From: Actinomycetota bacterium
GTDB taxonomy: Bacteria; Actinomycetota; Acidimicrobiia; Acidimicrobiales; MedAcidi-G1
DNA length: 64,000 nt
Direction of reading: 5' to 3'
Assembly (NCBI GenBank): GCA_014381745.1
Contig: JACNLA010000015.1
Location: 1 to 64,000 of the forward strand
Below are positions 39,283 through 43,557 of this stretch, in pieces; positions within the stretch are counted from its first letter, which is position 1, and each line of letters begins with the position of its first letter. Both the position numbers and the translations under genes were made by a program. The notes below the pieces were generated by a model. It ran no database searches and was not told where the DNA came from. It was given only the letters and a program-made list of their open reading frames with translations.

Positions 39283-40899
39283 TCAGACCTCGGTGTGGAG
39301 CAGGCCATAGACGATCGAGTCCACAAGCGCCTGCCAAGAGGCTTCGATGATATTTTCTGAAACCCCGATTGTCGTCCATGTCTGGTCTCCGTTGGTCGTG
39401 TCGATGAGAACCCGTGTAACAGCACCGGTTCCCTTGCGGGTCTCAAGCACCCTCACCTTGAAGTCGGTGAGGTGCAGCCGGTCGAGGGAAGGGTGACTGT
39501 CACCAAGGGCACTTCTGAGGGCGGAATCGAGGGCGTTGACGGGGCCGTTGCCTCTGCCCGTCGCCTCCCTCTGCTCTCCGCCGACCACGATCCTGACAAC
39601 AGCCTCGGTGTCCACATCGACGGCAACCTCGTTCCAGGCGCGGCTGCCGCTTCCGGATCGGTGCCCGACCTCGACGGTGAAGGAGTCCAGCTCGAAGTAG
39701 TCCTGTTGCCATCCTCCGGCGGCACGCATCAACAGCTCAAGCGATGCATCGGCAGCCTCGAAGTGGTAGCCGGCGTGTTCAAGGACCTTCATGGTGTCGA
39801 CGATGTCGCCCATGGTCCCGCTATCCAGATCAAGACCCAACTGTCTGGCCTTCAGGTCGATGGTGGACCTTCCCGACATTTCCGAAACGAGGAACCTGGT
39901 CCCGTTGCCGACGAGGTCGGGCGCAATGTGTTCATAGGCGTCGGGGCGTCTCGAGATTGCGCTGGTGTGTAGGCCAGCCTTGTGTGCGAAGGCGGTCGCA
40001 CCCACGTAGGGCTGCTGGGGGTCGACGGTGAAGTTCACCAGTTCCGCCACATGGTGGGCAACTGCGGTGAGTTGGCTGATGCCCTCCGTCGGGATGGTGT
40101 CGACACCCATCTTGAGGGTCAGGTTGGCGATTATCGGCACCAGGTCACAGTTGCCGACCCTCTCGCCGTAACCGTTGATGGTTCCCTGGACATGGGTCGC
40201 TCCACCGCGTACGCCGGCAAGTGCGTTGGCGATGCCACAACCAGTGTCGTTGTGGAAGTGGACGCCGATCGGGGTATCGGTGGCTGCTGCAACCTCAGAC
40301 ACGATCGCCTCCACGTCAAACGGGAGGCAGCCACCGTTGGTGTCACAAAGCACGAGGCAGTCGGCTCCGGCTTCGGCAGCACCGTCAAGAACCCGCATCG
40401 AGTACTCGGCGTTGGCCTTGTACCCGTCAAAGAAGTGCTCGGCGTCGAAGAACACCGTGAGACCACGACCCTTGAGAAACCTGATCGAATCGGCGACCAT
40501 CGCCACGCCCTCATCGAGAGAGGTTCGCAACGCCTCGGTGACGTGGTAGTCCCATGCCTTGCCGACTATGCAGACGACCTCGGTGTCGGAGGCCACAAGG
40601 TTGGCGAGGGTCGGATCGTCGTCGGCGCTCCCGCCGACGCGTCGTGTGGACCCGAAGGCGACCAGCCGGGACTGCTTCAGTTCCAGCTCGGTCCGCGCAC
40701 GCTCAAAGAACTCCTCATCCTTGGGATTGGCGCCCGGCCATCCGCCCTCAATGAAGTGGACCCCGAGCAGGTCCAGCTGGCGGGCGATCCGCAGCTTGTC
40801 AGCGACGGTCAGGGAAATTCCCTCCAACTGCGCGCCATCGCGCAGGGTGGTGTCGTAGATGTCTACCGATGCAGGCAGGTCAGGCGTCGACATGCTCAT
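39283..40899 (-). CDS. cimA: Citramalate synthase CimA
   Basis: Condenses pyruvate and acetyl-CoA to (R)-citramalate, the threonine-independent entry to isoleucine. 538 aa from ATG 40899 (GGAGTGGA upstream). The start overlaps the ilvE stop. The HMGL-like barrel has YDTTLRDGAQLEGISLT, VLCDTNGG, GVHFHNDTGCGIANAL and YGERVGNCDL. HKAGLHTSAI precedes the LeuA-type dimer domain with DFKVRVLETRKGTGAVTRV. The length above 500 aa and the YDTTLRDG motif separate it from LeuA. It fits the Val/Ile leader upstream. Confidence 0.94.
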   Translation of the reverse strand: MSMSTPDLPASVDIYDTTLRDGAQLEGISLTVADKLRIARQLDLLGVHFIEGGWPGANPKDEEFFERARTELELKQSRLVAFGSTRRVGGSADDDPTLANLVASDTEVVCIVGKAWDYHVTEALRTSLDEGVAMVADSIRFLKGRGLTVFFDAEHFFDGYKANAEYSMRVLDGAAEAGADCLVLCDTNGGCLPFDVEAIVSEVAAATDTPIGVHFHNDTGCGIANALAGVRGGATHVQGTINGYGERVGNCDLVPIIANLTLKMGVDTIPTEGISQLTAVAHHVAELVNFTVDPQQPYVGATAFAHKAGLHTSAISRRPDAYEHIAPDLVGNGTRFLVSEMSGRSTIDLKARQLGLDLDSGTMGDIVDTMKVLEHAGYHFEAADASLELLMRAAGGWQQDYFELDSFTVEVGHRSGSGSRAWNEVAVDVDTEAVVRIVVGGEQREATGRGNGPVNALDSALRSALGDSHPSLDRLHLTDFKVRVLETRKGTGAVTRVLIDTTNGDQTWTTIGVSENIIEASWQALVDSIVYGLLHTEV

Positions 40900-41800
40900 T
40901 CCACTCCGCATACTCGGGACGCTTGCCGCGGACAGCCTCGAAAAAAACCTCCTGAATGGCCCGCGTCACTGGCCCAGGGTCGCCGATGTCGCGCTCATCG
41001 ACCGAGCGGATCGGCACGATCTCGGCCGCTGTGCCGGAAAGGAACGCCTCGTCGGCGGTGTAGAGGTCGCTGCGCAGCAGGTTGCCCTGCACATACGGGA
41101 TACCCAGATCGTCTGCGATCCGATGGACGGCATCCTGGGTAATGCCCTCGAGGGCACCAGCACTCGTTGGCGGCGTGATGATCGTGCCGCCACTAACGAT
41201 GAACAGGTTCTCGCCGGTGCATTCGGACACGTTCCCCTGGGGAGACAGCAGGATGGCCTCGTCGTAGCCGGCCTTGATCGCCTGGACCTTGGCCATCTGC
41301 GAGTTGATGTAGTGACCACACCCCTTGGCGGCCGGCGGCATCGCGTTGGCGTCGTGACGCTGCCATGAGGAGATCATCATGCGCACGCCGTTCCTGATGC
41401 CGTCGTCTCCGAGGTAGGAGCCCCACGGCCAGGTGGCGATGGACACGTCGACGTCACATGGAATCGGGTTTAGACCCATCTCGCCGTACCCGAGGTACGC
41501 GAGCGGTCGGATGTAACAAGATGGAAGGTCGTTGACGCGAACCGTGTCCTTGACCGCCTCGACCAGTTGGTCCACAGTCCACGGAATGTCGATGAACAAG
41601 ATCTTGGCTGACCTGAAGAAACGCTCGATGTGGGGTGTGAGCCGAAAAACAGCCGGACCGCTGTCGGTCTCATAGGCCCGAATCCCCTCGAACACGCCGT
41701 TGCCGTAGTGGAGCGTGTGGGTGAGCACGTGGATCGTGGCGTCGTCCCAGTCGACGAGCTCGCCGTTCATCCAGATCTTGTCTGCCTTCTCGATCGGCAT
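40880..41800 (-). CDS. ilvE: Branched-chain amino acid aminotransferase IlvE
   Basis: PLP-dependent class IV aminotransferase (306 aa), last step for Leu, Ile and Val. The N-terminus IWMNGELVDWDDATIHVLTH and LHYGNGVFEGIRAY are typical. The PLP lysine is likely in AAKGCGHYINSQMAK. GNVSECTGENLFIV and GITQDAVHRIA follow. A good ribosome site (CAGGAGAGGT) precedes the ATG, 58 bases after leuB. Confidence 0.97.
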   Translation of the reverse strand: MPIEKADKIWMNGELVDWDDATIHVLTHTLHYGNGVFEGIRAYETDSGPAVFRLTPHIERFFRSAKILFIDIPWTVDQLVEAVKDTVRVNDLPSCYIRPLAYLGYGEMGLNPIPCDVDVSIATWPWGSYLGDDGIRNGVRMMISSWQRHDANAMPPAAKGCGHYINSQMAKVQAIKAGYDEAILLSPQGNVSECTGENLFIVSGGTIITPPTSAGALEGITQDAVHRIADDLGIPYVQGNLLRSDLYTADEAFLSGTAAEIVPIRSVDERDIGDPGPVTRAIQEVFFEAVRGKRPEYAEWNEHVDA

Positions 41801-41858: not shown

Positions 41859-42842
41859 TCAGCCCTGCACGCGTACGGCAATGGCGTCGCCTATTGCTGC
41901 TGTGCCTTCAAGTTGCGTGTCGGGGTCGGCACAGGCTGCCCGGATTCTGTCTGCGGCACCGCCCTCGCCGAGGAAGTCCAGCATCATCGCACCTGAGAGG
42001 ATCGCAGCCGTGGGGTTGGCGAGACCCTTCCCGGCTATGTCGGGCGCCGAGCCGTGAACGGGTTCAAACATTGAGGGCCCGGTACGCGCCGGGTTCAGGT
42101 TGGCCGATGAGGCAATGCCGATCCCACCTGACACGGCACCACCCAGGTCGGTGAGGATGTCGCCAAAGAGGTTGTCGGTGACGATCACGTCGTAGCGGTC
42201 GGGCGAGTCGACGAAGTAGATGCAGGCGGCGTCTACATGGTTGTAGGCGGTCTCAACATCTGGATACTCGAGGGCCACCTCGTTGAACGTTCTCTCCCAG
42301 AGGTCCCCGGAAAAGGTGAGGACGTTGGTCTTGTGCACGAGCGTCAGGTGGCTCCGGCGGCCACGTGCCAGGTCGAACGCAAAACGGATTGCCCGCTCGA
42401 CACCCATCCGGGTGTTGACCGAGCCCTGTGTGGCTACCTCATTCGGAGTGCCCTTGCGGAGAAACCCACCCTCTCCGGCATAGGTGCCCTCTGTGTTTTC
42501 TCTGACGACCATGAAATCGATGTCCGAAGGTGGGTAGAGGAACGGCCGCAGGTTCACGTACAGGTCAAGGTCAAAGCGCATCTTCAACAGGAGACCGCGC
42601 TCGATCACCCCGGGTGGAACCTCCGGCGTACCGACCGCTCCCAGGAACAGGGCATCCAGGTCACGCCACTCATCGAGGACCTCGTCGGGCAGCACGACGC
42701 CGTCGCGCAGGTAACGCGAGCCACCAAGGTCGTAGTCGACAGTGTCGATGGCAACGCCTGCGGCAGCAATCACCTTGAGGCCCTCGGCGAGGACCTCGGG
42801 GCCGATGCCGTCGCCGCCGATGACGCCGATTCGATGTGCCAC
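41859..42842 (-). CDS. leuB: 3-isopropylmalate dehydrogenase LeuB
   Basis: Oxidises and decarboxylates 3-isopropylmalate in leucine synthesis; related enzymes also serve citramalate-derived isoleucine. Taken from GTG 42842 ([17 protein letters not shown]) with AGGAG upstream, giving 327 aa. Blocks include [47 protein letters not shown] and [15 protein letters not shown]. First structural gene after the attenuator. leuC and leuD are not in the window. Confidence 0.95.
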
Positions 42843-42919: not shown

Positions 42920-42950
42920 CCAAAAAACCGCCCACCTGGGTGGACGGTTC
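42920..42950 (-). terminator. Intrinsic terminator in the leuB leader (attenuator)
   Basis: On the minus strand, an 11-bp stem (AACCGTCCACC/GGTGGGCGGTT, one G-T pair) with a two-base loop is followed by a run of six T. It lies 78 bases upstream of the leuB GTG and downstream of the leader ORF. This is the only clear stem plus U-tract of the window, and its position before an operon's first gene marks it as an attenuator. Confidence 0.85.
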
Positions 42951-42952
42951 GG

Positions 42953-42975
42953 GCGCACACCGGGATGGCGTGCGC
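42953..42975 (-). promoter_or_regulatory. Leader hairpin at the leader-ORF stop codon
   Basis: RNA on the minus strand can form a 9-bp stem GCGCACGCC/GGTGTGCGC (one G-T pair) with an ATCCC loop. Its first base is the last base of the leader ORF stop codon. In known attenuators such a hairpin pauses polymerase and is opened or covered by the translating ribosome. Confidence 0.6.
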
Positions 42976-43010
42976 TAGGTAATGGCGATCACCATGAATC
43001 CGGTACTCAT
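42975..43010 (-). CDS. Leader peptide of the leuB-ilvE-cimA operon
   Basis: A 12-codon frame reads MSTGFMVIAIT and stop. Codons for Val, Ile, Ala and Ile sit just before the stop, and the hairpin and intrinsic terminator follow at once. This is the layout of ribosome-mediated attenuation for branched-chain amino acids. A modest site (GGTAGG) precedes the ATG; an internal ATG gives MVIAIT. Confidence 0.65.
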   Translation of the reverse strand: MSTGFMVIAIT

Positions 43011-43034
43011 GAATGCGAGCCTACCAACTGCCCC

Positions 43035-43050
43035 CGGAGCATTATCAACC
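43035..43050 (-). promoter_or_regulatory. Candidate -10 element for the leuB leader transcript
   Basis: The minus strand reads GGTTGATAATGCTCC; GATAAT (43041-43046) differs from TATAAT in one base. Initiation a few bases downstream would leave about 25 bases before the leader ATG. No convincing -35 box was found. Confidence 0.3.
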
Positions 43051-43083
43051 GACTTTCGGCGGGCCGCTGGCTACGCTCCGGGA

Positions 43084-43557
43084 ATGGCCGACGAACACCA
43101 CCTGTCGCAGGTCGCTCACGACCGCCTCCTTGCCGAGTTGACGGACCTGACCACCCGCGGACGAATAGACATTGCCCGCAAGATCGAGGTAGCCCGCGAG
43201 ATGGGTGATCTCTCCGAGAACGGCGACTACCACGCCGCCAAGGAGGAGAAGGGCAAGATGGAGGGCCGCATCATGCACCTGGAGCGCCTCCTCGAAAACG
43301 TGGCGATCCTCGAGAGTGCGCCGACCGGTTCCGACACCGTCGTTCCAGGTTGCATCGTCTCCCTCGTCTACGGGGACGACGACGAGCCTGAGCGGATGCT
43401 CTTTGGCTCGATTGAGGAACGCCACGACGACATTGGCGTCGTCTCCCCCGGTTCCCCGCTGGGCGAGGTTCTCCTCGGCTGTGCCGTGGGCGACGAGGTC
43501 TCCTTTGAGGCCCCTGGTGGCGAGTTGACGGTTCGGGTGACCGGCATAGAGCACTAG
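43084..43557 (+). CDS. greA: Transcription elongation factor GreA
   Basis: Stimulates RNA cleavage by backtracked RNA polymerase. Taken from ATG 43084 (MADEHHLSQVAHDRL), 157 aa. The N-terminal coiled coil includes GDLSENGDYHAAKEEKG, whose acidic tip is the functional DLSENGDY, and the C-terminal FKBP-like domain has VSPGSPLGEVLLGCAVGDEV. It diverges from the branched-chain operon leader. Confidence 0.95.
   Translation: MADEHHLSQVAHDRLLAELTDLTTRGRIDIARKIEVAREMGDLSENGDYHAAKEEKGKMEGRIMHLERLLENVAILESAPTGSDTVVPGCIVSLVYGDDDEPERMLFGSIEERHDDIGVVSPGSPLGEVLLGCAVGDEVSFEAPGGELTVRVTGIEH

Follow-up and report, generated by a model that had tools for sequence, protein, structure and literature searches.

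The question raised by this locus is how the citramalate–isoleucine operon leuB-ilvE-cimA of an Acidimicrobiia genome is controlled, and whether the short reading frame, hairpin and terminator that precede it act together as an attenuator. The window, i.e., the whole stretch of DNA that was analysed, comprises 64,000 nucleotides. An earlier note, made from the letters of this DNA, had described an ORF ending in MVIAIT, a 9-bp hairpin starting at its stop codon, and a stem followed by a six-T terminator before leuB, and each of these is present on direct reading.

Layout of the leader ahead of leuB-ilvE-cimA

The features of the locus, with the basis on which each was assigned, are the following.

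43043..43048, minus strand: −35-like promoter element TTGATA (sequence reading; a TTGA-type element stands here in most family leaders)
43018..43023, minus strand: −10 element TAGGCT (sequence reading; TANNNT 6–8 nt 5' of the start in family leaders)
42975..43010, minus strand: leader ORF MSTGFMVIAIT, 11 codons plus TAG (sequence reading, family alignment)
42981..42992, minus strand: control codons GTG ATC GCC ATT, positions −5 to −2 from the stop (codon statistics)
42953..42975, minus strand: hairpin P1, 9 bp, beginning with the G of the TAG stop (folding, covariation)
42922..42950, minus strand: predicted intrinsic terminator T, an 11-bp hairpin (42950-42925) plus a U6 tract (sequence, folding, conserved core)
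41859..42842, minus strand: leuB, 3-isopropylmalate dehydrogenase (NF002898, 480 bits against a cut-off of 393)
40880..41800, minus strand: ilvE, branched-chain aminotransferase (TIGR01122, 413 bits against a cut-off of 245.55)
39283..40896, minus strand: cimA, citramalate synthase (TIGR00977, 662 bits against a cut-off of 450)

The whole leader, including its promoter, occupies 43048-42922 of the minus strand. TTGATA and TAGGCT are spaced by 19 nt, and TAGGCT stands 7 nt from the leader ATG at 43010. The ORF reads ATG AGT ACC GGA TTC ATG GTG ATC GCC ATT ACC, followed by the TAG at 42977-42975, and two unpaired bases lie between P1 and T. The GTG start of leuB at 42842, with AAGGAG just 5' of it, is reached 79 nt after the end of the U-tract of T (42922), while cimA starts at 40896 or 40911 and overlaps ilvE. 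The greA gene is divergent from the operon, on the plus strand. The longest plus-strand ORF at this place (42982-43557) corresponds to greA prolonged upstream across the leader; since the GreA match starts about 36 residues into it, the true greA start is probably the ATG at 43085.

The leader is predicted to fold at −55.1 kcal/mol, compared with −42.4 (sd 4.0) for dinucleotide shuffles (z −3.2; three of the 200 shuffles fold as well). By itself, the terminator pattern is weak, two being found in the region against 1.0 expected; this is near chance, so that conservation is needed as the deciding evidence.

Conservation, control codons and gene contexts

With regard to relatives, a search for leuB covered 48 family genomes, and the DNA upstream of 41 leuB loci was examined. 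The leader is present at 35 of these (33 distinct sequences), and the six loci devoid of it all belong to one genus. A covariance model made from the 33 distinct leaders matches 208 of 397 genomes of the order Acidimicrobiales and 132 of 247 genomes of the class Acidimicrobiia; searched phylum-wide, it matched 19 of 297 genomes, 15 of them inside the class. By the same model, about half of the genomes of the order, including 44 of 80 named leuB loci, carry no leader at leuB, a point that counts against the attenuator reading. Outside the class, similar leaders were also noticed in other families of Actinobacteria, ahead of leuB (L257) and ahead of ilvB (L258, L260). Conservation of the leader ORF in relatives had been set beforehand as one of the points on which the attenuator reading could fail, and ORF, control codons, P1 and T are all kept class-wide. 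The comparison of these sequences confirms that the observed element is real and conserved.

The ORF is exactly 11 codons long in all 33 distinct family leaders, starting with ATG or GTG; its seventh codon is one for Val and its tenth is ATT. A TANNNT element lies 6–8 nt 5' of the start in 33 of 33, against 2.8 expected, and a TTGA-type −35 element accompanies it in 68 of the 132 leaders having a −10 match. Given that only 7 nt separate the −10 element from the start codon, the leader mRNA is probably leaderless.

Codon −2 is Ile in 136 of 137 leuB leaders, with mostly Ile or Val at positions −3 to −5; by this count, the strictest-kept control codon is the Ile at −2. GTA makes up 52% of the Val codons in leaders and 4.4% in neighbouring genes, and ATT 42% of the Ile codons compared with 12.5%. 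In the leuB leaders, the third base is A or T in 80% of cases at −2 against 10–23% at −1, −6 and −7, so that this skew towards rare synonyms is not general AT-richness. Studies of other attenuators tie such a choice to sensitivity (PMC1183508).

Leaders of like design precede cimA in some genomes and ilvB in others. Before cimA, all 11 leaders have Ile at each of −2, −3 and −4; before ilvB, Val stands at −2 and at −3 in 10 of 13, with Val or Leu further 5'. Across the leaders compared, the control-codon content follows the downstream gene. In one genus of the family (L270-L274), leuB has been relocated from greA, and the leader, with VIII before its stop, remains beside greA directly before ilvE-cimA; it thus tracks the isoleucine-specific genes. 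Regarding the third base of codon −2 (42981-42983 in the window), T is found in 80–85% of leaders before all three genes, with ATT at −2 before leuB and cimA and GTT before ilvB, though GTA is preferred at other Val positions. This T may reflect codon choice or an RNA constraint.

The hairpin P1 is held at a fixed place relative to the ORF. In 154 of 162 leaders its first pair lies inside the stop codon, and the distance from the first base of codon −2 to that pair is 6–8 nt, likewise in 154 of 162. In an alignment of 97 matches, which was fitted to the covariance model and leans towards the model structure, 98.6% of cells are paired, and for eight of the nine P1 pairs there are one or more leaders in which both partners are replaced. 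The covariation score reaches 0.241, whereas shuffling gives 0.130 (none of 500 shuffles as high). Across the class, the 3' arm of P1 varies from GUGCGC to GUUCGC and GUCUGC, with T unchanged.

The core of T, CCGUCC/GGRCGG, is unchanged in nearly all of the 97 aligned leuB leaders, five of its pairs being without any change while P1 varies freely. The central U-G pair of the core is retained in 82 of the 97. T cores before cimA and ilvB differ from that of the leuB leaders. A search bias was considered as the source of this invariance, and a scan that made no use of the model was run over the 44 leuB loci without a model match; no leader of this kind turned up at 41, and the remaining three are in line with the background seen in control windows (46 of 480), so that the invariance does not stem from missed diverged leaders. 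The idea of T as a DNA operator used elsewhere was likewise discarded, the inspected sites away from leuB being the five displaced leaders before ilvE-cimA and two unrelated ones.

Pairing of the terminator and the proposed switch

In 161 leaders, the 5' arm of T was examined for pairing with the RNA that runs from codon −9 up to T, shuffled arms serving as the reference. Uninterrupted helices to this arm reached at most 3 bp in 14 leaders and 4 bp in 113, while 32 leaders had one of 5 bp and two had one of 6 bp; duplex energies were weaker than those of shuffled arms (mean z +0.67). By contrast, six E. coli attenuators submitted to the same computation as a control gave helices of 5–9 bp and z from −0.6 to −4.0, his being the weakest (−0.6). 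When the 5' arm of P1 was made unavailable, to imitate a ribosome standing at the stop, the RNA thus released was less structured than shuffles and T stayed intact in 95–99% of predicted folds, whereas the corresponding segments of the E. coli leaders pair with the terminator arm. These tests are equilibrium folding predictions, with which weak or kinetic antiterminators, pseudoknots and protein factors would possibly be compatible. The doubt raised in the earlier note about a missing strong antiterminator therefore extends to 161 leaders, in which the T 5' arm pairs below the level of shuffled arms while the E. coli controls do the opposite. Its suspicion of a non-classical switch stands as well, no recognisable pairing of the T 5' arm being found in these leaders. 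Compared with the classical trp/his/ilv type, the ORF with pathway codons and a predicted terminator before the first gene are in place, but an antiterminator is not.

Individual candidates for such a pairing fared no better. The GGTG/CACC alternative given in the earlier note is not conserved among family leaders. GGUG before the Val codon, considered as an antiterminator or Shine-Dalgarno-like element, was dropped since the preceding G varies (C in L019 and L032; A in L022, L023 and L042). The pairing of CGCCC with GGGCG does not survive in the ten family leaders that have GGACGG, although the pair within the terminator persists there as U-A.

A ribosome-mediated Ile/Val leader-peptide attenuator of the citramalate–isoleucine operon is what we consider likely, and the earlier proposal of a Val/Ile attenuator ahead of leuB-ilvE-cimA remains the best reading. 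Sequence comparison supports its parts, namely, the class-wide conserved ORF, gene-matched codons, covarying P1 and conserved T, together with the lack of a recognisable paired antiterminator; we infer translation of the ORF, the direction of control, readthrough of T and the ribosome footprint. The attenuator would sense charged Ile-tRNA, and also Val-tRNA. RNA polymerase would initiate on the start codon of the leader or close to it, with ribosomes loading on the leaderless mRNA. When Ile and Val are ample, the ribosome would reach the UAG, its leading edge would melt P1, and T would form and end transcription. When they are short, the ribosome would stall on the Val/Ile codons −5 to −2 with P1 intact at the mRNA entrance, and the polymerase would then more often pass T into leuB. 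The step in which P1 is intact or melted is proposed tentatively, as a serious possibility short of a probable one.

If pairing of the RNA is possible from roughly position +12 relative to the P site, the point of action of the ribosomal helicase, P1 is calculated to keep 99–100% of its stability for stalls at −5 to −2, 52% at −1 and 24% at the stop. The control codons would thus occupy positions that spare P1, which melts at the next steps. With a wider, toeprint-type edge, 82% is kept at −3 and 40% at −2, the break coming one codon earlier, so the distinction between intact and melted P1 depends on the footprint. P1 and T share no base, and because an antiterminator is absent, the link from P1 to T is missing. 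Blocking of T by plain adjacency of P1 is weakened as an explanation, as predicted folds of some untranslated E. coli leaders contain equally close helices. It is possible, though we regard it with some doubt, that the switch works class-wide without a base-paired antiterminator, the position of the ribosome being read solely from the intact or melted state of P1, and that this state acts directly on the polymerase or on T formation, an action that may go via the exit channel, pausing or a factor.

A first alternative is a classical four-region attenuator. In such a scheme, a stall would mask the 5' arm of P1, and the 3' arm thus freed (GUGCGC) would pair with the 5' arm of T (GUCCAC) as a weak antiterminator; in the family consensus these segments pair at five of six positions, one G-U and one C-C mismatch included, and if the footprint is of the toeprint type, P1 would be opened at its base by a ribosome stalled at −2. 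The scheme is nevertheless unlikely, given that the helix to the T 5' arm is at most 4 bp in 127 of 161 leaders and weaker than shuffled arms where all E. coli controls are better, that masking P1 leaves T intact in 95–100% of predicted folds, and that the P1 arm changes across the class while T stays the same. The constancy of T could instead point to a protein or small molecule which, in place of the ribosome, would recognise the core (CCGUCC...GGGCGG) and control termination. The five fixed pairs beside a free P1, the different cores before cimA and ilvB and the exclusion of a search artefact are in keeping with recognition of this kind, but it leaves the gene-matched codons, the rare-codon enrichment and the fixed spacing from ORF to P1 unexplained, and no Rfam family matches; as a replacement for the ribosome we find it quite improbable, although it could operate alongside it.

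A constitutive terminator placed after a chance or non-regulatory short ORF would be in keeping with the missing link from P1 to T. The exact ORF length in 33 of 33 family leaders, the gene-matched and rare codons and the class-wide conservation of the entire arrangement make it very unlikely. There is scarcely any probability that a starved ribosome traverses P1 and T by stop readthrough or hungry-codon frameshift, its translation unfolding T: the leader of the window is in frame with leuB, the frame is open, and each of the frames is slightly more open than its shuffled counterparts, but the frame from leader to leuB is mixed among relatives, against readthrough, and no single frame is favoured, against frameshifting.

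Relation to known leaders

The Ile/Val attenuator proposed here would be a variant of a known actinobacterial leader-peptide type, well supported as a conserved element and a candidate as a switch. In a 2005 survey, Seliverstov et al. reported ilvB leader peptides and terminators in Corynebacterium, Mycobacterium and Streptomyces, with no evident antiterminator, and left the mode of regulation unclear (PMC1262725). The leaders studied here share with that ilvB type a short ORF with Ile, Val or Leu codons and a terminator with a U-run before a biosynthetic gene (PMC1262725). However, the ORFs of the survey stand before ilvB and were described as overlapping the terminator (PMC1262725), whereas the Acidimicrobiia leaders are found before leuB-ilvE-cimA, cimA or ilvE (also ilvB) and have a separate P1 between ORF and terminator. 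In S. coelicolor, mutations of the ilvB leader codons left regulation unchanged (PMC1262725), which counts against the Ile/Val attenuator reading. Conversely, a precedent for it comes from the M. tuberculosis ilvB1 leader, where replacing the LVVI codons with Ala abolished induction (PMC13236596). That leader also has branched-chain codons including GUA followed by an intrinsic terminator, with the ribosome position as the deciding factor; a mutually exclusive antiterminator was proposed for it, whereas P1 of the Acidimicrobiia does not overlap the terminator, and P1 takes the logical place of the stall-formed structure of the M. tuberculosis model (PMC13236596).

Ribosome-mediated leader-peptide control of a branched-chain operon is likewise represented by the three-hairpin attenuator of C. 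glutamicum ilvBNC (PMC11857589) and the ilvB-II motif (PMC10272879). In both, terminator and antiterminator share bases, as supported by mutations, but no overlap was found in the Acidimicrobiia. In the E. coli thr, leu, his, trp, phe and ilv attenuators, too, a leader peptide with cognate codons is followed by an intrinsic terminator that precedes the first gene; unlike the Acidimicrobiia leaders, each of the six shows a helix between upstream RNA and the 5' arm of its terminator. IlvL and LeuL2 of Streptomyces lividans likewise consist of a short leaderless ORF (12–13 codons) followed by one or more hairpins and a U-rich stretch, but they belong to other genes (ilvBHC, leuS), encode other peptides and come with no described class-wide geometry (PMC8079986). 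The LEU element, a pseudoknot before leuA in which a Leu run pairs with the leuA Shine-Dalgarno, does not fit, as the present leader lacks a Leu run, precedes leuB and has a terminator. Rfam gave no match to the window leader at E ≤ 5 and none credible in related leaders. In the literature searched, which falls short of most subscription journals, no such leader was described for cimA or Acidimicrobiia.

Ever since ilvB/leuA were mutated in S. coelicolor and the survey of 2005 appeared, it has been asked how branched-chain leaders of Actinobacteria can switch when no antiterminator is evident. The roughly 160 leaders, in which the geometry from codon to hairpin is fixed, make this question testable, together with the three gene contexts and their matching codons and the natural relocation of leuB. 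The proposed attenuator also predicts that the citramalate pathway is under isoleucine/valine control throughout this class, most of whose bacteria are uncultured. As to the ilvB position that marks the leaders of the survey, the leader in the window precedes leuB, and sisters of like design precede ilvB, also in the same genome. This second leader of the window's own genome (contig C26, L266:1336-1455) encodes the peptide MMHMPTTEVQVLR and ends in GTA CAG GTA TTG CGC TAG, with a hairpin at the stop and a terminator following.
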